DNA of 64,000 nucleotides from Methanoregulaceae archaeon (GCA_020850325.1 JADZEW010000016.1:186001-250000), one strand, 5' to 3'. Shown: positions 8,939 through 26,273, numbered from the stretch's first letter. A program made the numbers and translations. Notes: generated from the sequence alone by a model not told the origin.

Positions 8939-8996
8939 AGTGCGAGTGTACCGGTTGAGCTCCACCAGGTCGGCGGTGAGTGGATTGGGCCAGTTC

Positions 8997-9025
8997 TTGC
9001 ATGTTTCGTCGAGAACTGTTATGAT
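8997..9025 (+). promoter_or_regulatory. Sigma70-type promoter of propeller gene 1, leaderless
   Basis: TTGCAT (8997-9002) and TATGAT (9020-9025) are spaced by exactly 17 bp. The ATG at 9031 lies 5 nt after the -10 box, so the expected +1 falls on or next to the start codon and no ribosome binding site fits. Confidence 0.7.
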
Positions 9026-9030
9026 GTCTC

Positions 9031-12000
9031 ATGCACTTTGAGGGGAGAGAGACGTTTAGCCTTTGGCGACTTGCCGGATTGGTCCTGCTTGCCATGGCGG
9101 CACCGGGTTCCATCGCCCAGACGATCCAACTGATCGGGGGGAATAGGCTCACTGAAGCCGAAGCAGTAGATGCCGTAGGGAACCGGGGAGTCGTGCTCAG
9201 AAAGACCATTGACGGGTTCTTCGAGGTCAGACTCCGGCCCGGTCTAGACCGCATCAGGTTCGCTGAGCAGATGAAGCAGGCGAACATTGAGTTTGTTTTC
9301 GAACTTTCCGCCACCCGCGTTGATCGCCAGAACTTGGCCTCGCTCCGTAGGCACATCGACTATGTGAAGGCGAGGAACAAGGTCCAGGCTACAGGCCCAG
9401 ATTACAGGAAGACGCCCGGAATCTATGCGGCGCTCGAGTACTACCTTTCGACCCGGGTGGGCCTGGATGGAACCGTCGATCAGGATCTCATCAAGCGAGC
9501 GGTGGAACACCGAGAGCAGCTGCCGCCCGCTTCGCTGGGCGGTGGTGGCCACGCCCCGAGCGCGTCGTTCTCGTACATTGGACCCAAGAATCTGGACATT
9601 CCGTATCAACAGTTCTTTGGTCGAGCACCGCTCGCCGGGCGGGTGAATGGCATCGCTTGGTCGCCATCGAATGCCAACGTCATCTATCTCGCAACCGCAG
9701 GCGGCGGGGTCTGGAGAAGTTCTGACCAGGGAAAGAACTGGTCGTTCCGCAGCGCGGGTTGGCAGTTCCTACACACGACCGGCATCGCCGTCCATCCAAC
9801 CAACGAGAACTTCGTTCTTGCGGGCACGGGCGACGCTTACGGCTTCTTCGGAGCGCAGACCATGGGGATAATGCGGTCAACGAACAGTGGATCCACATGG
9901 ACCCAGGTTGGCGCGGCGCAGTTCGGAAACAACATTGTTAGCCGTATCATCTACGATCCGGACAATCCAAACACGGTACTAGCCCTCACCATGGGCGCGA
10001 ACGGCGATATCTGGCGCTCGACCGATGGCGGTTTGACGTGGACCGCGACCGATGCACCAGCTCGATCATGGCAGGACATCGACTTTGGGACATTGTCCAA
10101 TGGAACTCGTGAGTTGTGGGCGGTCTCGGGCGATGGCGGAACTGGCGGCACGATCATGCGTTCGACAAATGGAGGTCGTAACTGGACAGCCATGACCTCT
10201 CCGATGGGCGGAGCGCAGGAGCGCCTCGACGTGGCCTGCTCCAAGGTCACTTTTGGCAAGGTCTACCTCCTGAGTTCGGAACAAGACACCATGTGGCGCA
10301 CGCAAAACAGCGGAACTACGTGGACCAACCTAGACTTGCCGGCTTCGACGAGCTTTCCCAAGGAGCAGGGAAACAACCCGAACTACAACTGGGCCCAAGA
10401 CGAGTACGACATGCATGTGACCACGGCGGCCTATGGCAACGAAGAGAACGTCTGGGTTGGATTGATCACCCTCGCCGTATCAACGGACAGCGGCGCGACA
10501 TGGGTGAACTTCAGCCGGAGTTACGACGAAGACCTTGGCTCAAGAATGCACTGCGACCAGCACACCTTTACACCGCACCCTACCTACGGCTACATCGGCC
10601 TCGCGGGATGTGACGGTGGGGTGTTCCGGACTCAGTACTACCCAGGGTTTCTCGATTCGATCGCTTCGCTGAACGGCACCCTCTACAACCATCAGTTCTA
10701 TCATATGTCGCTTCACCCCACCAGTTACGCCGACCGGATGATGGGGGGGACCCAGGACAATGCCTCACCGGCTTCCCGTGGCAACCTGGCTTCTTGGAAG
10801 AACCTCTACGCGGGTGACGGATCGTGGAGTGACTTCGACCCTAACGATCCGAACATCCACGTGACTAGCTCTCAGCGTGCTTCGGTCTACCGCTACACGA
10901 CCGCATCGGATACCGAACCCGATCGATTGGAGCCGGAGGGGGGATTCGCCTCTGCAGAGTTCATAGCCCCCCTCATCTATGCCTGGGACGGCACGTTGCT
11001 TGTTGGGGCATCCAATCGGGTGCAGCGGTGGATCGGTGATCGAGACTGGACTTTCTCCGGGACCTCGATGGTGGGCCAGCCGCGGGTTATTGCCAAGCAG
11101 GGCATCAGTTCTGCGCGGATGTATGCGGGCACATCAGCTGGACGCGTCTATCGTAGCGACGATCACGGCCACAACTGGACTCGAATCGATGCCGCACCCC
11201 TATCGGTGGATGCGATCGGTGGCATCGCGGTTTCGTGGGCGAGTTCAACCGACGTATTGGTTGGGATCAATCGACCGACCGGTGGATTGTTCAGATGCAG
11301 CAACACCTTGGCGGCCAGCCCGGTTTGGACGGACGTGAGCAGTACGGGCTCACTCGCCTTGCCGCAAACGCCAGTCAACGCCGTGGTGCGCGATCCCTAT
11401 CAGAATCCGATATGGTACGTTGGCACCGACGTCGGTCTCTTTATGACGACCGACTCGGGCGCGACCTGGAAGAACATGAATGCGCTTGGACTGCCCAATG
11501 TTCACGTGAACGCCCTCACCGTTTCCAAGGACAAGGCATACCTCTACGTTGCCACGTTCGGGCGAGGTATCTGGCGCATCCCGCTCGTGAACAACACCTT
11601 CAACTCGTTTACGCTTTCATCCAGCGAGGTATACGGCGACCGGTCGCTGATCGGCACTCTGCAGTTGGCGACGCTCGCGCCTGCGGGCGGAGTTCGGGCC
11701 GTCTTGTCGACCGCGAGCAGCTACGTGACGATTCCCAGCGAAGTTTGGATTCCCGGCAATGCAAGTTCGGTTTCGTTCACGATCACCACGTCGCAGGTGT
11801 TCTCGTCCAACAAGACGGCCGTCATCTTTGCGAACTGTATGGGGCAAACGAGATCGGCGACCTTGACCATCAAGCCGTATCCGACGGTGGCTTCCTTCGT
11901 CCTCACTAAGACCTATCTCTATGGCGGATCTAGCACACAGGGAACGGCAACCCTCTCGGCGGCTGCTCCGTTCGTCGGCTCTATGACCTTCACCGAGGAC

Positions 12001-12732
12001 TCACCGCTGGTGAGCGTAGTTTCTCCGATCACAATCGCGGCCGGAGAGACTTCGAAGGTGACCGTAATCACAACGACCTCTACCGCAAGCACCCGTGCCG
12101 TTCCGATTACGGCAGCATATAAGGGAACGACCAGAGTGGCCACCTTATCGGTGTTTCCTGTGCCCGTTGTCACCGACTTGTCGTTCAGTCCTAACCCGCT
12201 CTTGGCCGGTTTCAGCACCACGTGTACGATAACGCTGAGCGTTCCCGCACCTATCACCACGACGGTCGTCATGACGGACGACTCGCCGTACATTGCCACC
12301 TCAAACCGCACGATTCAGGCCGGTAATCAAACGCTTAGCTTCCTGATCTATGGGAGCAACCCTGACTCTGATGTGGATGTGAAGGTCAACGCAAAAGTGC
12401 TCGAAGATCCGGGAAACCACGTGAGCGCGACACTGACTCTTTGGCGGTCGGTCTTGCAGAGCATCGCAGTGTCTCCTAACCCGATCAAGGGTGGTGAACC
12501 TGGCATCGGCACCATCTCGCTCAACCGTCCGGTCACCCTGAATCGGGTCGTTCAGCTTGGTTCAGAGAACACGAGCCTGGTGAGCGTGCCCGCGGGGGTG
12601 ACTGTTGTTGCGGGCAATAATGCGGCAACTTTCACCGTGCGGACCGTCCGGGTGACGAGCACGCAGAACGTCGTGGTAGGGGCACAGTATCTCGGTCAAA
12701 TCGTCCACACGACGGTGCAACTGAAGCCATAG
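9031..12732 (+). CDS. Secreted Asp-box beta-propeller protein with Ig-like repeats, paralogue 1
   Basis: The first of four tandem paralogues (1,233 residues). Layout: a signal peptide (cleavage near IAQT, residue 29), an N-terminal domain of about 150 residues that I do not recognise (with HIDYVKARNKVQATGP and ALEYYLSTRVGLDGTVDQD), then a propeller of about 660 residues rich in BNR/Asp boxes (SSDQGKNW, STNSGSTW, STDGGLTW, STNGGRNW, STDSGATW, TTDSGATW), then four Ig-like repeats of about 90 residues to the end. Asp-box propellers occur in sialidases, GH74 glucanases and VPS10/Ycf48-type proteins; I see nothing that decides between enzyme and binding protein. There is no lipobox, transmembrane anchor or PEP-CTERM tail, so it is likely exported or held by non-covalent contacts. 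It is preceded by a leaderless-type promoter. Confidence 0.85.
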   Translation: MHFEGRETFSLWRLAGLVLLAMAAPGSIAQTIQLIGGNRLTEAEAVDAVGNRGVVLRKTIDGFFEVRLRPGLDRIRFAEQMKQANIEFVFELSATRVDRQNLASLRRHIDYVKARNKVQATGPDYRKTPGIYAALEYYLSTRVGLDGTVDQDLIKRAVEHREQLPPASLGGGGHAPSASFSYIGPKNLDIPYQQFFGRAPLAGRVNGIAWSPSNANVIYLATAGGGVWRSSDQGKNWSFRSAGWQFLHTTGIAVHPTNENFVLAGTGDAYGFFGAQTMGIMRSTNSGSTWTQVGAAQFGNNIVSRIIYDPDNPNTVLALTMGANGDIWRSTDGGLTWTATDAPARSWQDIDFGTLSNGTRELWAVSGDGGTGGTIMRSTNGGRNWTAMTSPMGGAQERLDVACSKVTFGKVYLLSSEQDTMWRTQNSGTTWTNLDLPASTSFPKEQGNNPNYNWAQDEYDMHVTTAAYGNEENVWVGLITLAVSTDSGATWVNFSRSYDEDLGSRMHCDQHTFTPHPTYGYIGLAGCDGGVFRTQYYPGFLDSIASLNGTLYNHQFYHMSLHPTSYADRMMGGTQDNASPASRGNLASWKNLYAGDGSWSDFDPNDPNIHVTSSQRASVYRYTTASDTEPDRLEPEGGFASAEFIAPLIYAWDGTLLVGASNRVQRWIGDRDWTFSGTSMVGQPRVIAKQGISSARMYAGTSAGRVYRSDDHGHNWTRIDAAPLSVDAIGGIAVSWASSTDVLVGINRPTGGLFRCSNTLAASPVWTDVSSTGSLALPQTPVNAVVRDPYQNPIWYVGTDVGLFMTTDSGATWKNMNALGLPNVHVNALTVSKDKAYLYVATFGRGIWRIPLVNNTFNSFTLSSSEVYGDRSLIGTLQLATLAPAGGVRAVLSTASSYVTIPSEVWIPGNASSVSFTITTSQVFSSNKTAVIFANCMGQTRSATLTIKPYPTVASFVLTKTYLYGGSSTQGTATLSAAAPFVGSMTFTEDSPLVSVVSPITIAAGETSKVTVITTTSTASTRAVPITAAYKGTTRVATLSVFPVPVVTDLSFSPNPLLAGFSTTCTITLSVPAPITTTVVMTDDSPYIATSNRTIQAGNQTLSFLIYGSNPDSDVDVKVNAKVLEDPGNHVSATLTLWRSVLQSIAVSPNPIKGGEPGIGTISLNRPVTLNRVVQLGSENTSLVSVPAGVTVVAGNNAATFTVRTVRVTSTQNVVVGAQYLGQIVHTTVQLKP

Positions 12733-12738
12733 TCATCG

Positions 12739-12775
12739 GATGCCTCCTCATCGTTGCCGATTGCGAGGAGGCATC
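12739..12775. terminator. Hairpin between convergent genes
   Basis: GATGCCTCCTC (12739-12749) and GAGGAGGCATC (12765-12775) form a perfect 11-bp stem with a 15-nt loop, just after the first propeller gene and before the stop of the convergent lipoprotein gene. There is no T-run on either side, so it is a likely but non-canonical bidirectional terminator. Confidence 0.55.
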
Positions 12776-12790
12776 GAATGGAGGTGCTCA

Positions 12791-13720
12791 TTACCGCTTG
12801 ACTTCGCAAACCGCGCGAAGCGTCAGCGGAGCCATCTGCGGGCTCTCCGAGAAGAACGCCCAGAACACCTCGCCCGAAATCTCGTCGATTTCCCCGTTGG
12901 CCTCGATGATCCGGCCGGGCAGCTTGACGATCGTCGACATCGAGATCAGACCGCTGTCCCCTTCGCCGCTGCTTTCGCTCTGAGCCTTTTCCTTGGTCGG
13001 GCCCATGATCTTCTCCGAGTCCATCTTGGCCATTAAGGTTCGGATGGCCTTGAGGCGGGCATCCTTGTCCATCTTGTCGCCAAAGAACTTCTCGAACTGG
13101 ACATCCATCGTGCGCCCAAAGCTGCGGCGGAGTTCGCGCTCGCCCAGGTCCGGGTGCAGGATTAGCGAAGGCAGCATGGGCCGCGTCGGGCCGAAGATGA
13201 TGCGCCAGAGGTCGATCATCGCGGCTTGCGACATCTCTTTGATCTGAGCGTCGGTGACCTCGATGCCGGCCAGGCTCTCGCGCAACATGGTCAGCATCTC
13301 CCCTTCGGGCGAGGGCATGTCGGGCTTCTTCTCACCCGTGTAGGTGATCGTCTCGAGATACTCGTAGCGGCCGTTGCCCAGGTCCTTCACCGTCACCGTG
13401 TTTGAAAGGATGGCCTTGCCCTTCTGCTTGACCCGGAGGTCGTCGGTGATCGTCTCGCCGAGCTTTGCCTGTCGCACCCCGGTGAACACCAGATACTCCT
13501 TTTCGGTGGTTTGGCTGGTCTTCCAGTCGGCGCCCGAGGGCAGGAAGAGGAACTGATCGAACGTGTTTGGCTTGCCCATCATGTCCTCCTTTTGGATGGA
13601 GAACTTGACGGTGCGCGTCCATGCCCCGTCCTCGGCGACCACGGTATCAGTGTTGGTACGAACGCACCCCGCAACCACCGCAAGGGCAGCGAGAGGAAGG
13701 AGTCGGAGCAAAATCTTCAT
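12791..13720 (-). CDS. Lipoprotein of unknown function between propeller genes 1 and 2
   Basis: The 309-residue protein starts with a lipoprotein signal, MKILLRLLPLAALAVVAGC, so its mature N-terminus would be a lipidated Cys19. The body is soluble, with a beta-rich first half (VKFSIQKEDM, EYLVFTGVRQ, GRYEYLETITY) and a more helical middle. A low-complexity linker (KEKAQSESSGEGDSG) precedes a final beta segment. I do not recognise a family. ATG 13720 is chosen because the lipobox spacing is then normal; CATAAT lies 6 nt upstream. The gene runs against its neighbours and shares a 96-bp divergent promoter region with propeller gene 2. Its place inside the array suggests a partner role at the surface, but nothing in the sequence proves it. 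Confidence 0.8.
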   Translation of the reverse strand: MKILLRLLPLAALAVVAGCVRTNTDTVVAEDGAWTRTVKFSIQKEDMMGKPNTFDQFLFLPSGADWKTSQTTEKEYLVFTGVRQAKLGETITDDLRVKQKGKAILSNTVTVKDLGNGRYEYLETITYTGEKKPDMPSPEGEMLTMLRESLAGIEVTDAQIKEMSQAAMIDLWRIIFGPTRPMLPSLILHPDLGERELRRSFGRTMDVQFEKFFGDKMDKDARLKAIRTLMAKMDSEKIMGPTKEKAQSESSGEGDSGLISMSTIVKLPGRIIEANGEIDEISGEVFWAFFSESPQMAPLTLRAVCEVKR

Positions 13721-13759
13721 GACAAGATTATGAAATGTAAACAAACTACGCATTTCTGC

Positions 13760-13788
13760 TTGCAATCAAGGGGCAAACCGGCTATCCT
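13760..13788 (+). promoter_or_regulatory. Sigma70-type promoter of propeller gene 2
   Basis: TTGCAA (13760-13765) and TATCCT (13783-13788) are spaced by 17 bp. Unlike copies 1, 3 and 4, this gene has a leader of about 22 nt with a purine-rich ribosome binding site (GGAGGGAG) before the ATG at 13817. Confidence 0.7.
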
Positions 13789-13816
13789 AGGGTAACCCGA
13801 GAAATCGGAGGGAGAT

Positions 13817-16800
13817 ATGAAAACACAATTGCGTTCAGCCTGGCTCTTGGTAGCCGCGCTGTCTGCCTCGGTCTCCGTGGCGCAATCCAACCTCTTGGTG
13901 GGTTCGCAGGGAGCGACGGAGTCATCCGTTCAGGCAGCAGTCGGAGATCAAGGGAAGGTCCTTGGCAAGAATGATGACGGCTTCTTCATCGTTCGCCTTA
14001 CGCGAGACACGGATCGTGGTCTTGCCATTCAGAAGCTTAAGAAAGCGAACCTCGAGTTCGTTTTCAACGAGTCGGCCACTCAGGTCAACCGTCACAACCT
14101 CTATTCGTTGCGTCAGCACATTGACTATGTGACGGCACGTCACAAAGTTCAAGCAACTGGCCCCGGCTACCGGACGACTCCAGGCTACTATGCGGCGTTG
14201 GAGTACTACCTCTCAACCCGTGTCGGGCCCGACGGGACCGTGGATCAGGACCTGATTCGGCGGGCGGTTGCGCAGCGCGACCAACTGCCGCCGGCATACA
14301 TGGGTGACCCCCAGGGGAACGCTCCGAGCTCTTCCTTCAGCTACGTCGGCCCGAAGGGCCTCGACATTCCTTACCAGCAGTACTACGGCATCGCTCCCTT
14401 GGCGGGCCGCGTTGCCGGTATCGGCTGGTCCAAAACGAATCCGAACGTGATCTACCTCGCAACGGCGGGCGGCGGCGTTTGGAAGTCGACGGATCAGGGC
14501 TCGAACTGGAGCTTCCGCAGCAGCGGATGGCAGTACCTGCACACCAGCAGCGTGGCGGTGGATCCTCTCAACGAGAACAACGTTCTCGTGGGAACTGGTG
14601 ACTACCGTGGCTTTTTCGGAGCCCAGACGATGGGAATCAAGCGGTCCACCAACGGCGGCTCGACTTGGACGACCGTCGGTGCCGCACAGTTTGGCAACAA
14701 CATCGTTACCAAGATTGTCTACCACCCGACGAGCACCAACATCGTTATTGCTCTGACGGCCGGCGCCGATGGCGACATTTGGCGATCGACGGACGGCGGT
14801 GTGACATGGGCGGCAACCGATGCTCCTGCCGGCAACTGGGACGACTGCGACTTCGGACCAGTTTCGAACGGCGTTCGTCAGTTCTGGGCAGTTGGCGGTA
14901 ACAGCACCGCAGGCGGCCGGATTGCACGTTCGGTGAACCAGGGTGGCAACTGGACCATCGTGGCCGACGCGACCTCGACGAGTCAATCGATCATGGACGT
15001 CGCCTGTTCGAAGAATACGTTTGGAAAGGTCTATGTCTTGCATCCCGGAAACAACACGATCTTCCGGACGACGAACAGTGGTTCGTCGTGGACCAACCTG
15101 AACTTGTCGACGAGCGGGACGTTCCCGAATGCGCTGGGTACCAACTCCCTGTACAACTGGAGCCAGGACACCTACGATCTCCACGTGGAGACGGCGCTTT
15201 CAGGCAATACGGAGTTCGTCTACTGCGGATTGATCACGCTCGCCGTTTCGACGGATAGCGGAGCCACATGGTCGGACTTTGGCCGCAGCTACCAGAACAA
15301 CTCTCGGTTGCACAATGACCAGCACTGCTTTACGCCGCACCCAACGAACGGCAATATCGGCATGGCTGGCAACGATGGCGGCGTGTACCGCATCCTAAAC
15401 TTTCCTGGAGTGCTCACAAGCGTGACCTCCATGAACAACAACCTGTACAACACGCAGTTCTATCACATGTCGGTTCACCCGACGAACTACGCGAACTATA
15501 TCATGGGCGGCACCCAGGATAACGCTTCGCCCGCCTCGAAGGCGAACATGAACGCCTGGAAGAACCTCTACGCCGGTGACGGCGCATGGAGCGACTACCA
15601 GCCGAGCAACCCGGCCGTTCACATCACGTCCTCGCAGAGAGCCTCCGTCTATCGGTATACGACGGATGGCGACTTGACTCCGGACGGAATCAGCCCCAAT
15701 GGCGGCTTCGGGTCGGCCAACTTCATCGCACCGTTGACCTTCGCCGGTTCCAGCACGCTGCTGGTCGGTGCAAACAACACGGCGATGCGTTGGACGGGAG
15801 GCACCTCGTGGGCCTCTTCGACCGGATTCGGCAGCAATGCCCGAACTTTCGCCGTGGGCACCTCCAACACGGCTCGCGTTTACGCGGGTACGAACAATGG
15901 CGGCGTTTGGCGCAGCGACAACACGGGTTCGACGTGGACCCAGATCGATACGACGTTGCCGAACAGCGCGATCGGCGGCATTGCCACCTCGTGGACAAAC
16001 TCCGCGGACGTCATTGTCGGTATCAACCGGCCGACGGGTGGACTCTTCCGTTGCTCGAACACCACGGCGGCCACGCCGGTGTGGACGAGCGTCAGTGGGA
16101 CGGGAGTCTTGGCTCTGCCCGAGACCCCGATCAATGCCGTGATGCGTGATCCTTACCAGAGTTCCATCTGGTACGTCGGCACCGACATCGGTGCCTTTAT
16201 GACCACGGACAGCGGTGCGACATGGCGCAATATGAGCAACCTCGGGTTGAGCAATGTCCATGTCAACGCGTTCGCGATTCCGGCTAACAAGAGCTACCTC
16301 TACGTGGCGACGTTCGGGCGCGGCATCTGGCGCATCCCGCTCACCAACAACACGTTCAACTCGTTCACGACGTCCCTCAGCCAGGTCTACGGTGGATCTT
16401 CGGTCAGCGGAACGCTCACGCTCGCTTCGCCTGCTCCGGCAGGAACTCGGGCAATCCTTAGCGAGACGAGTCCCTACGCGTCGATGCCTACAGGCGTCAC
16501 ATTCTCAACGAATGCGACATCGGCCTCGTTCGTGATCAGCACTAGCCAGGTCTTCTCGTCCAACAAGATCGCGTACCTGTACGCGAACCTGATGGGCACG
16601 ACCCGCTCGGTAGCTCTGACGATCAAGCCGTATCCGTACGTGTCTTCGTTCGTGCTGGCGAAGTCCTACCTTTACGGTGGGGCAAGCACGACGGGAACGG
16701 CGACGATCTCGGCACCGGCTCCGTTCACCGGATCGTTCACGTTCTCCGAGAACTCGGCGTTCGTGAGCGTGGTGTCGCCGATCACGATTGGCGCTGGCCA

Positions 16801-17485
16801 ATCGAGCAAGGTCACGACGATCAGCACGACGAAGCCGGCGACGGTTCAGTCGGTGCCGATCACCGCGGCCTACAAGGGAACGACCCGAGTCGCAACCTTG
16901 GTCGTCTATCCGCATCCGGTGGTTGCGAGCCTTACGTTCACGCCCAATCCGTTGCTCGGTGGTAACTACTCCGTGTGCAGGATCACGCTGAACGTTCCCG
17001 CTCCGATCACCACACAGATCGCGATGCAGGACGACTCGCCGTACATCGCGACCTCGACCAAGACCATGCAGGCTGGGCAACAAGTCCTGAGCTTCTCGGT
17101 CTATGGCAGCAACCCGCCGCAGGACGTCAACATCGCCGTCCAAGCACGGGTATGGGAGGACACGGGTCAAGCTACAAACGCGACCCTGGAACTGCTACGA
17201 TCCGAGCTCACCTCGATCGTGGTTAATCCCAACCCCATCCCAGGTGGCAAGTTGGGTGTTGCAACGATCAGGATCAATCGGGCACAGCCGTTGAAGAAGG
17301 GCATTATGCTCTTCTCGGACAACCCGAATGTCTTGACCGTTCCTCGAAGCGTCACGCTCCCGGCTGGCGCTACGGCGGTAAATGCTACGGTGAGAACGTT
17401 CAAGCCAGCAGTAAGCACCAACGTGGTGGTTTCTGCGACCTACTTGAGCACGACGGTTCGAACGACCGTTGTGGTCACTCCGTAA
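13817..17485 (+). CDS. Secreted Asp-box beta-propeller protein with Ig-like repeats, paralogue 2
   Basis: Same layout as the preceding paralogue, 1,222 residues. The signal peptide MKTQLRSAWLLVAALSASVSVAQ is followed by LLVGSQGATESSVQAAVGDQGKV in part, then the shared N-terminal domain (HIDYVTARHKVQATGP, ALEYYLSTRVGPDGTVDQD). The propeller has Asp boxes such as STDQGSNW, STNGGSTW, STDGGVTW and STDSGATW, and the C-terminus has four Ig-like repeats. It is closest to copy 1 by eye (for example GGTQDNASPAS and HVNAFAIP blocks). This copy has the strongest expression signals: a near-consensus promoter, a good ribosome binding site, C/G-ending codons over long runs, and a canonical terminator. It is therefore the likely main product of the array. 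The function is not known. Confidence 0.86.
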   Translation: MKTQLRSAWLLVAALSASVSVAQSNLLVGSQGATESSVQAAVGDQGKVLGKNDDGFFIVRLTRDTDRGLAIQKLKKANLEFVFNESATQVNRHNLYSLRQHIDYVTARHKVQATGPGYRTTPGYYAALEYYLSTRVGPDGTVDQDLIRRAVAQRDQLPPAYMGDPQGNAPSSSFSYVGPKGLDIPYQQYYGIAPLAGRVAGIGWSKTNPNVIYLATAGGGVWKSTDQGSNWSFRSSGWQYLHTSSVAVDPLNENNVLVGTGDYRGFFGAQTMGIKRSTNGGSTWTTVGAAQFGNNIVTKIVYHPTSTNIVIALTAGADGDIWRSTDGGVTWAATDAPAGNWDDCDFGPVSNGVRQFWAVGGNSTAGGRIARSVNQGGNWTIVADATSTSQSIMDVACSKNTFGKVYVLHPGNNTIFRTTNSGSSWTNLNLSTSGTFPNALGTNSLYNWSQDTYDLHVETALSGNTEFVYCGLITLAVSTDSGATWSDFGRSYQNNSRLHNDQHCFTPHPTNGNIGMAGNDGGVYRILNFPGVLTSVTSMNNNLYNTQFYHMSVHPTNYANYIMGGTQDNASPASKANMNAWKNLYAGDGAWSDYQPSNPAVHITSSQRASVYRYTTDGDLTPDGISPNGGFGSANFIAPLTFAGSSTLLVGANNTAMRWTGGTSWASSTGFGSNARTFAVGTSNTARVYAGTNNGGVWRSDNTGSTWTQIDTTLPNSAIGGIATSWTNSADVIVGINRPTGGLFRCSNTTAATPVWTSVSGTGVLALPETPINAVMRDPYQSSIWYVGTDIGAFMTTDSGATWRNMSNLGLSNVHVNAFAIPANKSYLYVATFGRGIWRIPLTNNTFNSFTTSLSQVYGGSSVSGTLTLASPAPAGTRAILSETSPYASMPTGVTFSTNATSASFVISTSQVFSSNKIAYLYANLMGTTRSVALTIKPYPYVSSFVLAKSYLYGGASTTGTATISAPAPFTGSFTFSENSAFVSVVSPITIGAGQSSKVTTISTTKPATVQSVPITAAYKGTTRVATLVVYPHPVVASLTFTPNPLLGGNYSVCRITLNVPAPITTQIAMQDDSPYIATSTKTMQAGQQVLSFSVYGSNPPQDVNIAVQARVWEDTGQATNATLELLRSELTSIVVNPNPIPGGKLGVATIRINRAQPLKKGIMLFSDNPNVLTVPRSVTLPAGATAVNATVRTFKPAVSTNVVVSATYLSTTVRTTVVVTP

Positions 17486-17495
17486 CCGTCTAACC

Positions 17496-17532
17496 AAGCC
17501 CCCGTCCGCTCATCCGCGGACGGGGGCTTTTT
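17496..17532 (+). terminator. Rho-independent terminator of propeller gene 2
   Basis: A perfect 13-bp GC-rich stem (arms AGCCCCCGTCCGC and GCGGACGGGGGCT, loop TCATCC) followed by a T-run. It begins 11 nt after the stop and is the clearest intrinsic terminator in the window. Confidence 0.95.
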
Positions 17533-17560
17533 GTTGCGTCGCTTCGAGCGAATCCCAACC

Positions 17561-17566
17561 TATAAT
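17561..17566 (+). promoter_or_regulatory. Consensus -10 box of propeller gene 3, leaderless
   Basis: A consensus TATAAT lies 7 nt before the ATG at 17574, so the transcript would begin at the start codon. The -35 region is poor. Another ATG at 17565 overlaps the box and is thus unlikely to be used. Confidence 0.65.
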
Positions 17567-17573
17567 GTTACTT

Positions 17574-20500
17574 ATGCGTTTCTGGTTGCGATCGATGGTG
17601 CTAGGCGCGATGATGGGAGGGCTATCCCTCGCGGTCGCCGATACACTGCTGGTCGGATCGCCCAACCTCGACGAGCGCACGGCGCTTGCGAACGTCGGCG
17701 ATCTTGGAAAGGTGGCCGGCAAGAACCCGGATGGCTTCTACGAGGTCGTCGTTTCCGCTACCAGCCGACAACAGGCATTGAAGGGGCTGAAGTCGAAGTT
17801 CAGGTTTGCCTTTGATTCGCGAGCATCACAAGTCGACCCACGCTCACTGCCCTCCTTGCGCAACCACATCGAATACCTGAGGGCTCGCTCCGAGCTTCTG
17901 GCACATGGCCCCGAGGCCAGGCCAACGGCGGGATTCTACGAGGCCCTCGCTTACTATCTCGAGCCTCGGGTTGGCCCCGATGGCACCATTGACCAAGATG
18001 CGGTCAAGCGTGCCGCAGAACATCGGGATCAAATGCCGCATGCCTGGGTTGGTACGAACACCAATGCGCCCTCCTCAACCTTTACGTTTATGGGGCCCAA
18101 GAACTTGGGGGTCGCGTACCAACTCTACATGGGCGTCGGACCCGTCTCAGGCCGCGTGAACGGGATCGCCTACGCGAAGAGCAATCCGAACATCGTCTAC
18201 CTGGCCACCGCGGGGGCGGGTGTTTGGAAGTCGGTCGATCAAGGCACGAACTGGTCCTTTCGAAGCCACGACTGGCCCTTTCTTCACACCAACAGCGTTG
18301 CCGTTCATCCCACCAATCCGAATCTCGTCCTCGTAGGGACGGGGGACTACAAGGGCTTTTTCGGGGCCCAGACTCAGGGCATCATGCGCTCGACCGATGG
18401 TGGATCGACGTGGACCGCGGTGGGCAAGACGTTTGACAGTCAGGTCGTTACGAGGGTGCTTTTTCATCCCGACAATCCAAACATCGCCCTTGCCCTAACG
18501 GGCGGCGCAACCGGCAAAATCTGGCGCTCGACCGACGCGGGTGTAACGTGGTCGGCCACCAACGCAGTCGAGGGCCGCTGGGACGATATCGACTATGGCC
18601 CCGTGAACTCGAAGGGCACTCGCCAGATCTGGGCCGTCGGTGGTAACAACGAGGCAGGCGGAAGGATCGCGATGTCCACGAACCAGGGTCTGACGTGGGC
18701 GACGATTAACGAGCCCACGGTAGGTGTTCAATCCGTGCTCGATATCGCGTGCTCGAAGAAGACGATTGGAAAAGTCTGGGTGATGTACCCCAATAGCAGC
18801 GCCGTGTTCCGCACGACGAATAGCGGAACGAACTGGACGAATCTGTCGCTCACCAGCAACGCCACGTTCCCCAACCACCGCGATCCTGGCGACTCCTTCA
18901 ACTGGCGCCAAAGGAACTACGATTCCTACGTAGAGACGGCTCTCTACGGCGACACGGAGATTCTCTATGTCGGACTCATCACACTAGCGTCCTCGGCGGA
19001 TGATGGGACCACTTGGACGGATGTTGCAAGAGGCTTTCGCGAAGATGCTCGGATGCACGTGGACCAACACTGCTTCACACCCCATCCCACAAACGGATCG
19101 ATCGGGCTGGCGGGGAATGACGGCGGCGTGTTCCGAGTCGTTAATGTCCCTGGCGACACACCGACGACCACCTCACTCAACGCCAAGTTGTTCGCAACCC
19201 AGCACTACCACGTCTCGGTGCACCCTGAGAGCCACGGAACCTACATGATGGCGGGAGCCCAAGACAATGCAACGCCCGCCTCTCGAGGACTGCTGGACGC
19301 CTGGTCAAACCTCTACGGTGGGGACGGGGGGTGGAGCGCCTTTCTGCCCAGTAACCCGAATGTGCATTTCACAACGGGCCAGAGAGGAGCCGTCTATCGC
19401 TACGCTACTAGCTTGGCGAACGTACCCACAGAGATTCGGCCGCCCACTACGGCTGGAACAGCATTCATTGCCCCGATGGTGATTGCCGATTCCGGCCGCG
19501 TGCTCATTGGAGCGCAACAGCGGGTTCAGCGATGGTCGTTCTCGGGCACCCTCTGGTACAGCTCTGCTGACTTCTCAACGGAGATGCGAACCCTTGCGGT
19601 TGCACCCAGTAATCTGCGACACGTCTATGCGGGCGGGTTTGATGGGAGTATCCGAAAGAGCACAGACAATGGCGAGAACTTCTCCCCGTTCCGGAGAGCC
19701 GCATTTGCTCCGGTGAGTGCCTTGGCCGTATCTTGGACCAACGATGACGACCTTCTCGTAGGGCATCAGGGCCCAGAGGGTGGCCTCTTTCGGACGACCG
19801 GCTTTGACCTGGGCCGGGCGTGGACCAATGTCTCCGGCGTCGGTGCTACCGGCCTGCCCGCATCACCCATCAATGCCGTTGCCCGCGATCCCCATCAGAG
19901 CGACGTTTGGTACGTTGGCACGGACGTCGGAGCCTTCATGACCACGAATGGAGGCCAAACCTGGACCAATATGAACCCGCTGGGGCTCGGCAATATCCAT
20001 GTCAACGCCTTCGCGATCCCGCCCGACAAGACCTTCCTCTACGTTGCGACGTTCGGCCGCGGTGTTTGGCGGATTCCGCTGGTCAACAATCAGCTCACTG
20101 CCTTCGAGGTGAATCAGGACATCGTACTCGGCGATCAGCCGATCATGGCAACCCTACGACTCACGCATCCGGCACCGCAAGGCACGACGGTCAAACTGGC
20201 AAGCGCAAGTCCCCACGTGACTATCCCTACCAGCCTGGACTTTCCAGCCGGGACCACGGAGCGGACGTTCACGATCCAAACCAACCAGGTGTTCTCCTCG
20301 CCCCGCACGGCCATCGTGTTTGCGACCTGCATGGGTGCAACCCTCAGTCGAGAACTCACCATTCTGCCTTACCCGACGGTGGCTTCTTTGACCATCCCGC
20401 GCAACTACATGTACGGCGGAAGCTGGCAGTACGCGACCGCCACCCTCTCCGCCCCGGCTCCCTTGGCGGGTTCGCTCACGTTTACAGATGATTCGCCTTT

Positions 20501-21227
20501 CTTGAGCGTGCAGTCTCCGATCACGGTCGGGTTTGGACAGTCTCAGAAGCTGACGACCGTTTCGACAACGAATCCCAGTTCGATGCAGACGGTGACGATC
20601 ACGGCTTCCTACAAGGGGACAACCCGCACGTTGACGGTGTACGTGTATCCGATGCCGGTCATCAAGTCGGTCTCCATGCATCCGATTCCGCTGATCGGGG
20701 GCTTTGTCGGTACGGCGACGGTCACTTTGCAACAGCCAGCACCGATCACGACCGAGATCGCGATTGCGGAGAACTCGCCCTATGTGACCATCCCGTCGCC
20801 GCGAACCCTGCAAGCGGGACAGACCCTGGTGAACATCCCGGTCTACTCGATCAACCCGCTGCAAGACGAGACGATCGGCTTCAATGCGCGGATCGTCGGG
20901 GATCCGGCCGCGCCCAAACCGGGCACCATCGACTTGAGACGGTCTCAGTTGACGTCGCTGTCGGTCAGCTTGAACCCCATCTCTGGCGGGAAGAAGGCCG
21001 TTCTCACGGTGACCCACAACTTGGCGCTACCGGTCTCGCGGGTCGTTTCGTTGAGTTCATCGAACCCGGCGGTCGCATCGGTGCCGGCGGGAGTGACGAT
21101 GATCGCCGGCAGTGCATCGGCCACCGCGACGGTCACCACCTACGCGGTAACGCAGTCCACGACGGTGACTCTGACCGCGAGCTTCAATGGAACGACGCGG
21201 CAGTCGACACTCACAATTCTTCCCTGA
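17574..21227 (+). CDS. Secreted Asp-box beta-propeller protein with Ig-like repeats, paralogue 3
   Basis: The 1,217-residue protein begins with signal peptide MRFWLRSMVLGAMMGGLSLAVADT, then the N-terminal domain (LLVGSPNLDERTALANVGDLG, split here, and HIEYLRARSELLAHGP), the Asp-box propeller (SVDQGTNW, STDGGSTW, STDAGVTW, STNQGLTW, TTNGGQTW) and four Ig-like repeats. The start at 17574 was chosen because TATAAT lies just before it; the frame is open upstream into the terminator of copy 2, which cannot be coding. It is the most divergent of copies 1-3, with GGTQDN changed to AGAQDN, and some propeller blades have lost Asp-box residues. No cell-wall or membrane anchor is visible at the C-terminus (LTILP). 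Confidence 0.84.
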   Translation: MRFWLRSMVLGAMMGGLSLAVADTLLVGSPNLDERTALANVGDLGKVAGKNPDGFYEVVVSATSRQQALKGLKSKFRFAFDSRASQVDPRSLPSLRNHIEYLRARSELLAHGPEARPTAGFYEALAYYLEPRVGPDGTIDQDAVKRAAEHRDQMPHAWVGTNTNAPSSTFTFMGPKNLGVAYQLYMGVGPVSGRVNGIAYAKSNPNIVYLATAGAGVWKSVDQGTNWSFRSHDWPFLHTNSVAVHPTNPNLVLVGTGDYKGFFGAQTQGIMRSTDGGSTWTAVGKTFDSQVVTRVLFHPDNPNIALALTGGATGKIWRSTDAGVTWSATNAVEGRWDDIDYGPVNSKGTRQIWAVGGNNEAGGRIAMSTNQGLTWATINEPTVGVQSVLDIACSKKTIGKVWVMYPNSSAVFRTTNSGTNWTNLSLTSNATFPNHRDPGDSFNWRQRNYDSYVETALYGDTEILYVGLITLASSADDGTTWTDVARGFREDARMHVDQHCFTPHPTNGSIGLAGNDGGVFRVVNVPGDTPTTTSLNAKLFATQHYHVSVHPESHGTYMMAGAQDNATPASRGLLDAWSNLYGGDGGWSAFLPSNPNVHFTTGQRGAVYRYATSLANVPTEIRPPTTAGTAFIAPMVIADSGRVLIGAQQRVQRWSFSGTLWYSSADFSTEMRTLAVAPSNLRHVYAGGFDGSIRKSTDNGENFSPFRRAAFAPVSALAVSWTNDDDLLVGHQGPEGGLFRTTGFDLGRAWTNVSGVGATGLPASPINAVARDPHQSDVWYVGTDVGAFMTTNGGQTWTNMNPLGLGNIHVNAFAIPPDKTFLYVATFGRGVWRIPLVNNQLTAFEVNQDIVLGDQPIMATLRLTHPAPQGTTVKLASASPHVTIPTSLDFPAGTTERTFTIQTNQVFSSPRTAIVFATCMGATLSRELTILPYPTVASLTIPRNYMYGGSWQYATATLSAPAPLAGSLTFTDDSPFLSVQSPITVGFGQSQKLTTVSTTNPSSMQTVTITASYKGTTRTLTVYVYPMPVIKSVSMHPIPLIGGFVGTATVTLQQPAPITTEIAIAENSPYVTIPSPRTLQAGQTLVNIPVYSINPLQDETIGFNARIVGDPAAPKPGTIDLRRSQLTSLSVSLNPISGGKKAVLTVTHNLALPVSRVVSLSSSNPAVASVPAGVTMIAGSASATATVTTYAVTQSTTVTLTASFNGTTRQSTLTILP

Positions 21228-21242
21228 CTTAGCCAAACAGCC

Positions 21243-21272
21243 TTGGCTCTCTGCTGATAATCCGGCTATTCT
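21243..21272 (+). promoter_or_regulatory. Promoter of propeller gene 4, overlapping a small hairpin
   Basis: TTGGCT (21243-21248) and TATTCT (21267-21272) are spaced by 18 bp, and the GTG start at 21279 lies 6 nt after the -10 box. The TTGGCT element is also the right arm of a 6-bp hairpin with AGCCAA (21232-21237), just after the stop of copy 3. Confidence 0.6.
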
Positions 21273-21278
21273 GAAAGG

Positions 21279-24200
21279 GTGCTTGGCTTTCGAAACGTCC
21301 GGACAGCTTTCAGAGTTGGGTTGGTTCTTGCGATCTTCACGGTTGCGGGATACTGCGGCGCGCAAACCACGCTGCTTGTGGGTTCGCCCGGTGCTACCCA
21401 ATCCATGGTAGAGACAGCCCTGAGGGGCCGCGCCCGCGTCCTCGGACAGTCCGACGGTTTCTACCGAGTCCGAGTCGATCGCTCCGCAGACGTTAGAGGC
21501 GTAAAGTCGCGCCTGCATGAGGCGGGCATTACCTACATCTTCCCGCAATCCGCGGCCCTCATCGATCGCAACTCGCTACCTTCGGTGAAGCAGCACATCG
21601 CCTACTTCAAAGCCCGGGCTAAGATCTTGGGCGACGACGGCGAGGCCGTCCGGAAGTCCGCGGGATTCTACGAGGCGCTTGCGTACTACCTCGAGCCCCG
21701 CGTCGGCCTCGATGGGCAGCTGGACCAAGACGCCATACTGCGCGCTGTTGCCCAGCGTGAGCGGCTGCCACTGGCGTGGATGGGCCGCGACCCCAAGGCG
21801 CCCAGCGCGTCGTTCAACTACGTCGGGCCCAAGAACCTCGACATCCCCAAGCAGATTTACTACGGGACTCCGCCGCTGAGCGGGCGGGTCAACGATGCCG
21901 AGTATGCCCCCAGCAACCCCAATGTCATCTATGTCGCAACCGTGGGAGCAGGCATTTGGAAGTCCACCGACCAAGGTACGAACTGGAGCTTCAAGAGCAG
22001 CGGTTGGGAGTTTCTCCACACGACTGCAGTCGCCGTGCATCCCACCAACGAGAACATCGTTCTTGTCGGGACTGGTGACTACTACGGGATGTTCGGGGAG
22101 CAGACCATGGGGATCATGAGGTCTACCAACGGGGGCACCACATGGACTCAGGTCGGCACGGGGACGATGAGGCTGGATGTGGTCACGCGAGTTGTCTTTA
22201 ACCCCGATGATCCCAACATTGTGCTCGCACTCACCGACAGCTCGGACGGCGACATCTGGCGATCGACCGACGGAGGGGTGACGTGGGCAGCAACCAATGC
22301 TCCCGCAGGGAACTGGGATGATATCGACTACGGCATCCGGTCGGGTGGAACCCGGGAGTTCTATGCGGTAGGTGGCAATAGTGAAGCGGGAGGCCGCATC
22401 TACCGATCCACGAATGCCGGATCGACTTGGTCGGTCGTCAATGATGCCACCTCGACGGTGCAAGGGATGCTCGATGTCGCATGCTCAAAGAAGACCTTTG
22501 GCAAGCTGTGGGTGCTTCACCCGGGGGGAAACACCATCTTCCGTTCTTCAAACAGTGGGGCCTCTTGGACGAACCTCAATCTCACGTCAGAGCCCACGTT
22601 CCCGAACGAGCTTAACGAAGACGAGCCTCTCTTCAACTGGGGACAGGATCTGTACGATCTCCACGTAGAAACCGCCCTCTACGAAGGGACCGAGATGCTC
22701 TACTGCGGGCTGATCACCCTGGCCGTTTCCACGAATGACGGCAACACCTGGACGGACGTGGGGAAGAGCTACAAATCGAACTCGCTTATCCACAACGACC
22801 AGCATAGCTTCTCTCCTCACCCCCTCAATGGCTCCGTTGGGCTAGTTGGGTGCGACGGTGGGTTGTTCCGAATCCAGCACGTCCCCGGCAATTTCACCTC
22901 AATCGTGTCCCTGAACGAGGAGCTCTACACGACCCAGTTCTATCACATGTCGGTCCATCCGACCAACGCCAATCACGTGATGGGTGGTACTCAAGACAAC
23001 GCGTCGCCAGCCTCTCGGGGGAGTCTTTCGAACTGGAAGAACCTGCGCGATGGCGACGGATCCTGGAGTGCATTCCTGCCCAGCGACCCGGCCATCCACT
23101 TCACGAGTGCCCAGCGTGGCTCCATCTACCGCTACACGTCGAGCACCGATTACAACCCAGCTTCAATTACGCCTGAGTGGACCCTGGTGAACTTCATCGC
23201 GCCCATGGTGATCTCGGGATCGGGCCGAGTGCTGGTCGGTGCGAACCTTGCGGTTCAACGATGGGCCGGGACCGGAATCGTCTGGACCCCAGCCTCGCCT
23301 TCGTTCAGCACGAACGTCCGGACGCTCGCCGTGGGGATTTCGAACCGAAATCGCGTGTACGCCGGCCTCGACAATGGCGACCTCTATCGCAGCGACAACA
23401 ACGCTGACACCTTCACCAAGATTGATACGGCGGCGCTACCCGACTCGGCGATCGGTGCCATCGCATGCAAAGCGACGAGTTCGACCGACGTGCTGGTCGG
23501 GTTCCAAAGATCGACCGGTGGTCTTTTTCTCTGCCGTGATACTTCGGCGGCCAGCCCAGTATGGACCGAGGTGAGCGGCACGGGCGATACTGCCCTACCC
23601 GCATCTCCGATCAACGCGATCATCTGGGATCCGCACGACCCCAGCGTTTGGTACGTAGGCACCGACGTTGGCGCGTTCATGACCACCGACTCGGGGGCCA
23701 CTTGGGCAAACATGAATGGACTCGGGATCGGCAATGTCCACGTCAACTCGTTCGCGATTCCCGAGGGGCAGGATTACTTGTACGTCGCGACCTTTGGCCG
23801 CGGCATCTGGCGGATTCCCCTGGTCAACAATGACCTCCTAACGCTTACGCCATCGGTCTCCGAGGTCTTCGGCGGGCGTTCACTCGCCGCGACAGTCACC
23901 ATTCAGCATCCAGCCCCCCCGGGGACGCGGGTGACCCTGAGCGACAACAGTTCGTACGTGTCGATGCCCTCGTCGGTCCAAGTCACCCAAGGCTTGACGG
24001 CGGCGGCCTTTACGATCGATACAACTCAGGTGTTCTCATCGAATCGAACCGTGACGTTGACGGCCTCGGCCTTCGGCAACAGTATCACCGCGACCCTTGT
24101 GGTGAAGCCCTATCCGACGGTCGCGTCGTTCGTCTTGGCGAAGACCTATCTCTATGGAGGTGCGGCAACGACGGGCACGGCTACCTTGTCCGCCCCCGCC

Positions 24201-24968
24201 CCCTTCACGGACTCGTTCACGTTCACCGACAACTCGGCGTTTGTCAGCGTTGTGTCACCCATTACTGTGGCTCAAGGGGTCTCGAGCAAGACGACCAACA
24301 TCTCGACGACCAACCCGTCCTCGGTGCAGACCGCGACAATCACCGCGAACTTCAAGGGAACGACCCGAACCGCCACTTTGAGCGTGTACCCGATGGCGGT
24401 CATCCAGTCCTTCAAACTCACCCCGAATCCCCTTCTTGCGGGCTACTTCACGCTGGCACGTGTCACTTTAACGAGCCCGGCTGCCATCACCACCGAACTT
24501 CGATTCACCGAAGCCTCAGGCTACGTCGTCTTCCCCCCCACCCGGACGATTCAGGCGGGCCAAACGACCAACGCGTTCGTGGTCTACGGCTTCCAACCTC
24601 CCTCCGACCAGAGCATCCCGGTGAGCGTAGCCATCGTGGGAGACGAGAACAATCCAACCAACGCGACCCTCGATTTACTGCGCGTTGAACTCACGGGACT
24701 GACCTGCTCGCCCAACCCGGTCCGTGGCGGGGCCTTGGGCGTGTTGACCGCGACGGTAAACCGGGCACTTCCGACCAACCGGCCGGTCTCCTTGACTTCA
24801 AGCAACATCACGATCGCCACGGTGCCGCGAACGGTCACGCTGGTCGCGGGCAATACGACGGTCAGCGCTACGATCAGCACCTTCCCACAAGTGACCTCGA
24901 AGAACGTCGTCCTGACGGCCAGCTATCTCGGCACGACCAAGCAGGTGACGTTGACCGTAAACCCGTAA
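21279..24968 (+). CDS. Secreted Asp-box beta-propeller protein with Ig-like repeats, paralogue 4
   Basis: Last of the four tandem copies (1,229 residues), starting at a GTG that follows TATTCT by 6 nt. The signal peptide ends near YCGAQT (about residue 29). Next come the shared N-terminal domain (HIAYFKARAKILGDDG, ALAYYLEPRVGLDGQLDQD), an Asp-box propeller (STDQGTNW, STNGGTTW, STDGGVTW, STNAGSTW, TTDSGATW) and four Ig-like repeats, each with the pattern GG-x-G-x-L-PAP then TR-ATL. The N-terminal domain is closest to copy 3 (ALAYYLEPRVG), while Ig repeat 2 (LAKTYLYGG, APFTDSFTF) is closer to copy 2, which points to exchange between copies. The stop codon abuts the stop of the convergent MFS gene with no gap. 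Confidence 0.85.
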   Translation: MLGFRNVRTAFRVGLVLAIFTVAGYCGAQTTLLVGSPGATQSMVETALRGRARVLGQSDGFYRVRVDRSADVRGVKSRLHEAGITYIFPQSAALIDRNSLPSVKQHIAYFKARAKILGDDGEAVRKSAGFYEALAYYLEPRVGLDGQLDQDAILRAVAQRERLPLAWMGRDPKAPSASFNYVGPKNLDIPKQIYYGTPPLSGRVNDAEYAPSNPNVIYVATVGAGIWKSTDQGTNWSFKSSGWEFLHTTAVAVHPTNENIVLVGTGDYYGMFGEQTMGIMRSTNGGTTWTQVGTGTMRLDVVTRVVFNPDDPNIVLALTDSSDGDIWRSTDGGVTWAATNAPAGNWDDIDYGIRSGGTREFYAVGGNSEAGGRIYRSTNAGSTWSVVNDATSTVQGMLDVACSKKTFGKLWVLHPGGNTIFRSSNSGASWTNLNLTSEPTFPNELNEDEPLFNWGQDLYDLHVETALYEGTEMLYCGLITLAVSTNDGNTWTDVGKSYKSNSLIHNDQHSFSPHPLNGSVGLVGCDGGLFRIQHVPGNFTSIVSLNEELYTTQFYHMSVHPTNANHVMGGTQDNASPASRGSLSNWKNLRDGDGSWSAFLPSDPAIHFTSAQRGSIYRYTSSTDYNPASITPEWTLVNFIAPMVISGSGRVLVGANLAVQRWAGTGIVWTPASPSFSTNVRTLAVGISNRNRVYAGLDNGDLYRSDNNADTFTKIDTAALPDSAIGAIACKATSSTDVLVGFQRSTGGLFLCRDTSAASPVWTEVSGTGDTALPASPINAIIWDPHDPSVWYVGTDVGAFMTTDSGATWANMNGLGIGNVHVNSFAIPEGQDYLYVATFGRGIWRIPLVNNDLLTLTPSVSEVFGGRSLAATVTIQHPAPPGTRVTLSDNSSYVSMPSSVQVTQGLTAAAFTIDTTQVFSSNRTVTLTASAFGNSITATLVVKPYPTVASFVLAKTYLYGGAATTGTATLSAPAPFTDSFTFTDNSAFVSVVSPITVAQGVSSKTTNISTTNPSSVQTATITANFKGTTRTATLSVYPMAVIQSFKLTPNPLLAGYFTLARVTLTSPAAITTELRFTEASGYVVFPPTRTIQAGQTTNAFVVYGFQPPSDQSIPVSVAIVGDENNPTNATLDLLRVELTGLTCSPNPVRGGALGVLTATVNRALPTNRPVSLTSSNITIATVPRTVTLVAGNTTVSATISTFPQVTSKNVVLTASYLGTTKQVTLTVNP

Positions 24969-26273
24969 CTAGTGCTCGCGCAGGATCTTCAAGGAAATCA
25001 GGAACCCGAGGGTGACGCAGATCGCGGTGCCCATGAAGGGCGAGTAATGGCCAAAGCTCGCGCCGAGGCCCATGCGCTCGCCTACTGGAACCAGGCCCTG
25101 GTAGGATAGCCCCCCCAACGGAGCTCCGACGATCGCCCCGAGGCCCTGCGCCGTCATCACCGCGCCTACGTTAGCGGCACGTTTGTTCGGGTCGAGGTCG
25201 CTGACCGATGCGAGCCATGCGGGGATCGTCAGCAGGAATCCCATGCCCACCGGCAACCCACCCAGGACCAACACCCACGTCGATCGAAAGGCCGGGAAAA
25301 AAGCCCCCATGCAGATCACGATCAGACCAACCGAACATAGCCCCAGCCCAAAATGCACGGCGCGTGCACGCCCGATCCGCTCGCCAAACTTGGCCATCGG
25401 CACGCTAAAGACCGCCATCGCGATCGCGCACGGGAACACGAGCGCGCCGAACTGCGCACCGCTGAGCTTGAACTCCTCGAGCGCGAACAGCTTCACATTC
25501 GTCATCGGGAAGCCGATTCCGCAGAAGGTGACCGCACTCAGCAGGAGGTATGCAGGAATCTGGCGGGCGGTCTTGATGAAGTCGCGTACATGGAACCCCT
25601 CGTCAGGTGGAGCCTCCCGGTGGGCGACGCCATCGGGAACGCGAAGCCGGAAGACCGCAATGGCAACGATGAAGAAGAGGGCCGCCGAGAGATACAAACC
25701 TCCTGAGAAGCCACCGCTGATCGGCAGTAGAGTCGTGTGGGTGAGGTCCTCGACGATACCGCCGATGGGCAACGCAAGCGCGATCCCGATGAGGTAGCAC
25801 ATGTTCAGCAGCGACATCGCCTGCTGCCGCTCGCGGTCCTTGACCACATCGCCCATCAGCGCAAAGGCCGCGGGCCAGAGCATCGCCGCACCCACGCCGT
25901 CTCCAAGGCGCAGGATTGCGAACAGCGCAATCTCCATCGGCTCCCCCACCCCCGGATCGAATCGCGGGACAACCAACGAGAGCAATGACGTGGTCAACGT
26001 GATGAGCGGGCCGATCAACATCAGCCGGCGGGCTCCGATTCGGTCGGCCAGGTGCCCCATGGGGCCCTTCATAACCGCTTCGCTGAGCAAGAATGCCACC
26101 ACGACCAGCGATACGCCGAACGCGCCGAAGCCTCGGTCGTTGCGCAGGTACACGGGCATCGTTGAGATGTTGAGGACTGCGTAGCCGATCTCGGCGAGCA
26201 GGGCAACGAGCAACATTCGACGCACGAAAGGCTGCGCGATCAGGGGTGTGGGCTTTCCGCTTGCCTCCGCCAT
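24969..26273 (-). CDS. MFS transporter, drug or sugar efflux type
   Basis: The 434-residue protein has about 12 hydrophobic membrane segments in two sets of six, with a central cytoplasmic loop (RVPDGVAHREAPPDEGFHVRDF in part). The loop after segment 2 reads GPMGHLADRIGARRLMLIGP, the MFS signature motif A (G-x-L-x-D-R-x-G-x-R-R). A second such motif in the other half is weaker (AKFGERIGRARAV). The substrate cannot be told from sequence. The start is ATG 26273; TATCAG lies 10 nt upstream and a hairpin sits at 26295-26312. The gene is convergent with propeller copy 4, and the next minus-strand gene upstream ends at 26354. Confidence 0.85.
   Translation of the reverse strand: MAEASGKPTPLIAQPFVRRMLLVALLAEIGYAVLNISTMPVYLRNDRGFGAFGVSLVVVAFLLSEAVMKGPMGHLADRIGARRLMLIGPLITLTTSLLSLVVPRFDPGVGEPMEIALFAILRLGDGVGAAMLWPAAFALMGDVVKDRERQQAMSLLNMCYLIGIALALPIGGIVEDLTHTTLLPISGGFSGGLYLSAALFFIVAIAVFRLRVPDGVAHREAPPDEGFHVRDFIKTARQIPAYLLLSAVTFCGIGFPMTNVKLFALEEFKLSGAQFGALVFPCAIAMAVFSVPMAKFGERIGRARAVHFGLGLCSVGLIVICMGAFFPAFRSTWVLVLGGLPVGMGFLLTIPAWLASVSDLDPNKRAANVGAVMTAQGLGAIVGAPLGGLSYQGLVPVGERMGLGASFGHYSPFMGTAICVTLGFLISLKILREH

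Follow-up and report, generated by a model that had tools for sequence, protein, structure and literature searches.

The window analysed here is a 64,000-nucleotide stretch of contig C16 from a 3.5-Mb assembly. As read from their open reading frames, four same-strand paralogues at positions 9031–24968 encode secreted proteins of 1,217–1,233 residues. The named relatives of these proteins among GTDB contigs belong to Armatimonadota, several being labelled Fimbriimonadaceae; because a match also sits in Fimbriimonadaceae bacterium ACE_ARM8 (CP075366), a genome placed in the window's family, the host, an Armatimonadota bacterium, most likely belongs to the family Fimbriimonadaceae. The surface biology of this phylum is little known, and a search of the literature on Armatimonadota secreted proteins returned nothing on the array proteins. 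The locus comprises the following features:

7874–8965, minus strand: rlmN-like gene, the left border of the array
9031–12732, plus strand: copy 1, 1,233 aa; signal peptide to 9117, N1 9118–9345, N2 9346–9564, double propeller 9565–11634, Ig1–4 11635–12729
12739–12775, no strand assigned: inverted repeat GATGCCTCCTC...GAGGAGGCATC, read in the sequence, where copy 1 and the lipoprotein gene converge
12791–13720, minus strand: lipoprotein gene (lipobox LAVVAGC), between copies 1 and 2
13817–17485, plus strand: copy 2, 1,222 aa; signal peptide 13817–13882, N1 13883–14110, N2 14111–14332, double propeller 14333–16390, Ig1–4 16391–17482
17496–17529, plus strand: strong terminator-like hairpin with a 14-bp stem (11 G-C), downstream of copy 2
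17574–21227, plus strand: copy 3, 1,217 aa from the ATG at 17574 (an alternative ATG at 17565 gives 1,220 aa); N1 17634–17858, N2 17859–18077, propeller 18078–20129, Ig repeats 20130–21224
21279–24968, plus strand: copy 4, 1,229 aa, GTG start; N1 21363–21587, N2 21588–21809, propeller 21810–23870, Ig1–4 23871–24965
24969–26273, minus strand: MFS transporter gene, the right border of the array

A preliminary description of this DNA had reported four genes of this size in one orientation, and they are indeed present; its broad picture of gene family, secretion and mosaicism is likewise sound. The array is tandem but not contiguous, since the minus-strand lipoprotein gene separates copies 1 and 2. 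Copies 2–4 share 49–63% identity with copy 1. To the left, the array is bordered by rlmN and an Lpt export cluster, with every gene on the minus strand, and to the right the stop codon of the MFS gene abuts that of copy 4. The lipoprotein gene is conserved, adjoins rlmN in both species compared below, and found no match in a Pfam search; the inverted repeat next to it is possibly a terminator shared with copy 1. Elsewhere in the window, a single plus-strand ORF at 40548–41978 matches both NanE (ManNAc-6-P epimerase) and a ROK kinase, that is, a fused epimerase-kinase.

Transcription of the array as a single operon was considered and set aside, given the strong terminator after copy 2 and the −10-like boxes at the starts of copies 1, 3, and 4. 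Because of the hairpin between them, copies 2 and 3 are probably separate transcription units. Copy 2 has an upstream Shine-Dalgarno sequence (GGAGGGAG), and copies 1, 3, and 4 carry a TATNNT box 5–8 nt upstream of the start (window positions 9000–9031, 17545–17574, and 21255–21279, respectively), which reads TATAAT shortly 5' of the ATG in copy 3 and TATTCT in copy 4. Such a box also precedes the starts of X and Y, two copies of a congeneric genome introduced below, and this layout suggests leaderless mRNAs for copies 1, 3, and 4 as well as for X and Y. It is a by-eye reading, since sites found in a generic sigma-70 consensus scan were no more numerous than expected by chance.

An AlphaFold2 model of mature copy 2 (mean pLDDT 87.5) agrees with the domain plan proposed earlier (signal peptide, head of about 150 residues, propeller, and four Ig repeats). 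The head, for which Pfam and NCBIfam gave no match, consists of two parts: N1, of approximately 70 residues, and N2, a helical segment ahead of the propeller. Structure prediction, a step that the preliminary description had proposed, gives N1 (residues 1–69 of mature copy 2, pLDDT ~90) a ferredoxin-like beta-alpha-beta-beta-alpha-beta fold, and models N2 as three helices between N1 and the propeller. The N1 segments of the window copies did not match the Pfam prodomain PF22148 even at E 10. An N1 profile built from 23 family members retrieved subtilase prodomains of the same order from a set of 241 ORFs (best E 1.9e-6), and profile-profile alignment (hhalign) against such prodomains gave 95.9% probability over 65 columns, with column-shuffled controls at or below 0.9%. 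This link runs via intermediates, as a profile restricted to the array genes plus paralogues gives 68.9%. In structural comparison, N1 matches the subtilisin propeptide 1scj with a Z of 6.6, a score tied by unrelated ferredoxin-like folds (HMA, ACT-type). On its profile, then, N1 is a remote homologue of the subtilase prodomains. In every copy it is followed by N2 and the propeller, not by the S8 peptidase to which prodomains of this class are fused.

N2 can be aligned across Fimbriimonadales, and its core (QRAYPxxxIDxxAxxxA..RxxM, before WxxxGPxNxxGR) occurs ahead of BNR propellers in several phyla, including Bacteroidota, Ignavibacteria, Chlorobiota, Actinomycetota, and Acidobacteriota. Across 201 sampled genomes of the phylum, N1 and N2 occur together within the family only, and N2 alone is more widespread. 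The head had initially been regarded as impossible to place and as a potential new family; instead, N1 is tied to the prodomains and N2 to bacterial BNR proteins of several phyla.

Each copy matches the Pfam Sortilin-Vps10 family (PF15902) at 1e-20 to 1e-27, with scores of 74–95 bits that exceed the cut-off of 33. That family has a single 10-bladed propeller; the propeller of the copy 2 model (approximately model residues 135–820) fits the 7+7-bladed GH74 fold far better, with weaker matches to sortilin and SorCS. GH74 proteins are the top structural matches (6p2k_A: Z 31.5, rmsd 3.6, 602 residues aligned), the best Foldseek match of the propeller model is 6mgl (E 1.7e-25), and a profile search of the PDB retrieves the GH74 structure 6p2m (E 7.5e-52). 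The propeller is thus modelled as a tandem 7+7-bladed GH74-type fold, and the single Asp-box propeller of the first reading gives way, in structural alignment to GH74, to two seven-bladed ones.

The first-blade Asp of 2cn2 (YARADIGG) is what we take to be the GH74 catalytic base. At the position aligned with this Asp of the 2cn2 segment YARADIGGAY, copies 1–3 have Ala and copy 4 has Val, the aligned segments being YLATAGGG (copies 1 and 2), YLATAGAG (copy 3), and YVATVGAG (copy 4). The same Asp is Ala in 2cn3, and 6mgl is titled in the PDB as a D60A mutant of a different GH74 member; the GH74 profile alignment left out the region of the second catalytic Asp. Because the GH74 base is lost, the modelled propeller most likely binds a glycan or protein and does not hydrolyse xyloglucan.

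Catalysis of another kind has to be weighed at this point. Among 25 propellers from many phyla, the H, D, and H of HxDxH, the DGG, and the Q and D of QDN are invariant against a mean column identity of 21%, and these residues (HxDQH, GxDGG, and QDN), conserved across phyla, could form a candidate active site despite the lost GH74 residue. They would fit catalysis outside the cell by Asp-box enzymes of a non-GH74 type (a lyase, a hydrolase, or another class), with copies that differ in substrate, and a match to the NCBIfam 'F510_1955 family glycosylhydrolase' points the same way, although its 72–99 bits lie far under the curated cut-off of 175. We consider this unlikely, as the GH74 base is absent and the invariance may also mark structural or metal sites.

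An alternative centred on the head holds that N1 is a true prodomain-type inhibitor or chaperone, the array proteins being non-proteolytic partners that bind the cell's own subtilases and regulate them. Beyond the kinship of N1 with subtilase prodomains, the window's genome has nine prodomain-family places; its subtilases carry the same prodomain class, some of them with an Ig tail as well, and an Ig-tailed subtilase on contig C26 has a weak prodomain match. The propeller profile also matches the dispase autolysis-inducing protein (5fzp, E 1.2e-22), a propeller that by its name acts on a protease, on which a literature search yielded nothing of use. Set against these points are the 68.9% probability reached by the array N1 alone, the generic nature of ferredoxin-like folds (HMA and ACT-like domains being tied), and a neighbourhood in which no subtilase gene adjoins the array, and such a regulatory role appears improbable to us.

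The C-terminal Ig region extends the comparison to the whole secretome. An Ig-tail profile (A5) had 48 matches in approximately 38 distinct ORFs of the window's genome and 49 matches in the congener, compared to 0–12 in each of 25 other genomes of the family and order; a C-terminal tail of three to four Ig domains is strongly expanded in the genus relative to the rest of the family. Among its carriers are a glucose/sorbosone dehydrogenase (GSDH), two subtilases, and a PD40 propeller, as well as tandem arrays of eight and four ORFs, and in nearly all of them the tail reaches the C-terminus. The locus is in this way tied to a genus-specific secretome of some 38 proteins sharing one Ig tail, which probably acts as a spacer or display module. 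In agreement with the preliminary description, the array proteins showed neither an LPxTG nor a PEP-CTERM anchor; with no recognised anchor, attachment to the surface would be a guess. The eight-ORF array (contig C26:163000-182500 of the window's genome) is larger than that of the window and consists of tandem secreted ORFs, each roughly 700 aa long and with the same Ig tail; a similar run occurs on contig C166 of the congener.

Copy turnover was assessed against one congeneric genome (G001), a fragmented assembly; a contig break splits its copy 3, and the gene order there was pieced together from the ends of the two contigs. That order is rlmN, lipoprotein gene, copy 2, copy 3, Y, a 189-bp MFS 3'-end fragment, X, and MFS. 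Copy 1 is absent from the congener, where the rlmN-lipoprotein junction is intact, and the extra copy Y is present. Copies 2 and 3 have one-to-one orthologs with 75–93% identity in most domains (82% overall for copy 2), whereas the N1 of copy 3 is only 46% identical to that of its ortholog, its other domains being at 75–93%. Copy 4 shares 67–74% identity with X from N1 to the propeller and 39–65% in the tail; the former part appears orthologous to X, the latter not clearly so. The MFS fragment, on congener contig C171 (5222-5410 of the extracted locus), matches the 3' end of the intact gene at 95.8% identity and, as a duplicate lying between two copies, is a relic of rearrangement. Since Y and X share only ~59% of their DNA positions, they did not derive from each other in the event that left the fragment; a joining of divergent alleles at this relic is one reading. 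Between the same two species, array orthologs are 65–82% identical in amino acids, compared to ~92% and ~96% for the non-array paralogues C8 and C1. Copy number and copy sequence both shift more quickly in this cluster than among related genes at other genomic sites. Repeated local duplication, as first proposed, is incomplete in view of the copy loss and gain and the MFS relic.

Whether copies have also exchanged segments is less clear-cut. The preliminary description paired the heads of copies 1 with 2 and 3 with 4; the former pair stands (N1 identity 49%), and the latter was not seen, as N1 of copies 3 and 4 is 32% identical and that of copies 3 and 2 is 42% identical. It also likened the second Ig repeat of copy 4 to that of copy 2. 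These repeats are 73% identical, compared to 46–49% for the remaining Ig repeats, but in most copy pairs Ig2 is conserved better than any other repeat, and the best Ig2 tree does not join the two, tolerating their grouping when forced (p 0.167). The per-domain phylogeny proposed at the outset yielded partly incongruent trees. Many cross-tree AU tests reject, although the trees compared differ in several weak branches; ten single-clade constraint tests, with uncorrected p-values, are cleaner. By these tests, propeller A rejects the orthology of copy 2 (p 0.028), with copy 1 joining the congener's copy 2, and the grouping of copy 4 with X is rejected by Ig4 (p 0.041) and by the whole Ig region (p 0.047). 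There was no rejection for N1 of copy 3 (p 0.122) or for Ig2 of copy 4 with X (p 0.391), and after correction for ten tests none is significant. Replacement of N1 in copy 3, to which its 46% identity and AU rejections had pointed, was not upheld: forcing both copy 3 N1 domains together is not rejected, and hence fast divergence is equally possible.

Recent gene conversion between the window copies was not borne out by a permutation test of maximal shared fragments (28 pairs), in which no within-genome tract reached a global p < 0.05 (copies 1 and 4, p 0.07). The strongest cross-paralogue fragments connect copy 4 with the congener's copy 2 in Ig2 (p 0.032) and copy 1 with the congener's copy 2 (p 0.029); because they link genes of two species, they would be old. 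Exchange between copies, the part of the early mosaic picture backed by the incongruent domain trees, is therefore plausible, presumably old, and unproven, as the constraint p-values are marginal and no within-genome conversion is significant. Those same results, together with the one-to-one orthologs that copies 2 and 3 keep over nearly all domains, suit ordinary tandem duplication with relaxed divergence, free of exchange or selection for diversity and compatible with any function. We hold this to be a substantial possibility, if not the favoured one, as it sits poorly with the copy turnover and the MFS relic, with the faster divergence of array genes than of paralogues elsewhere, and with the rejections by propeller A and the Ig region.

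Taken together, the array proteins are built from known parts: a prodomain-like head, a GH74-like double propeller, and a shared Ig tail. Their anatomy, predicted folds, missing base Asp, and shared tail, as well as the copy turnover and faster divergence of their genes, were computed directly. We give about even credence to the reading that they are secreted, predicted binding proteins, not active in the manner of GH74, with a fast-changing repertoire. The four genes would then form a small family, quick to turn over, whose products are exported by Sec and bind targets outside the cell, with N1 as a permanently fused, subtilase-prodomain-like head and N2 as a helical linker that bacterial BNR proteins commonly share. 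The propeller, lacking the GH74 base, would most likely bind its glycan or protein target in the interlobe cleft, and the four-Ig tail used across the secretome would probably serve as a spacer or display module, possibly at the cell surface. Turnover and piecewise exchange might maintain a varied repertoire.

A bolder and very improbable extension is a natural diversification locus, in which divergent alleles of other strains are stacked and heads and tails recombine or hyper-diverge. Each lineage would thereby acquire a private set of secreted binders, whose prodomain-like head would adjust their contact with the cell's own Ig-tailed proteases. Stacking of divergent alleles is suggested by the Y-X junction in the congener, where the relic is 96% identical and the flanking copies are 59% identical in DNA. 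An uncatalogued head gains a relationship (to subtilase prodomains) and the propeller gains a fold (GH74-type, base lost), and the two species can be compared for the ways in which such arrays of secreted repeat proteins acquire, drop, and reshape their members.

Asp-box propellers rank with the most frequent propeller families of bacteria, and the domains found alongside them are of many kinds, for binding, adhesion, and hydrolysis (PMC2716378), so the propeller class alone does not fix function. Three known systems frame these proteins. GH74 xyloglucanases (PDB 2cn2, 6mgj, 6p2k, and 5fkq) share with the array a tandem seven-bladed Asp-box propeller of ~600 residues (Z ~30), but at 15–20% identity, and the array proteins differ in having Ala or Val for the base Asp, a prodomain-like head, and an Ig tail. 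The secreted BNR/Sortilin-Vps10-like propellers of Bacteroidota, Ignavibacteria, Acidobacteriota, and other phyla have the same HxDQH, GxDGG, and QDN residues and N2 core; no case of N1 together with N2 was seen beyond the family, and the C-terminal regions of these relatives differ from that of the array. Lastly, the N-terminal prodomains of fervidolysin and subtilisin (PF22148; PDB 1r6v and 1scj) resemble N1 in fold and profile, whereas the N1 of the array is fused to a propeller and lacks a peptidase domain.
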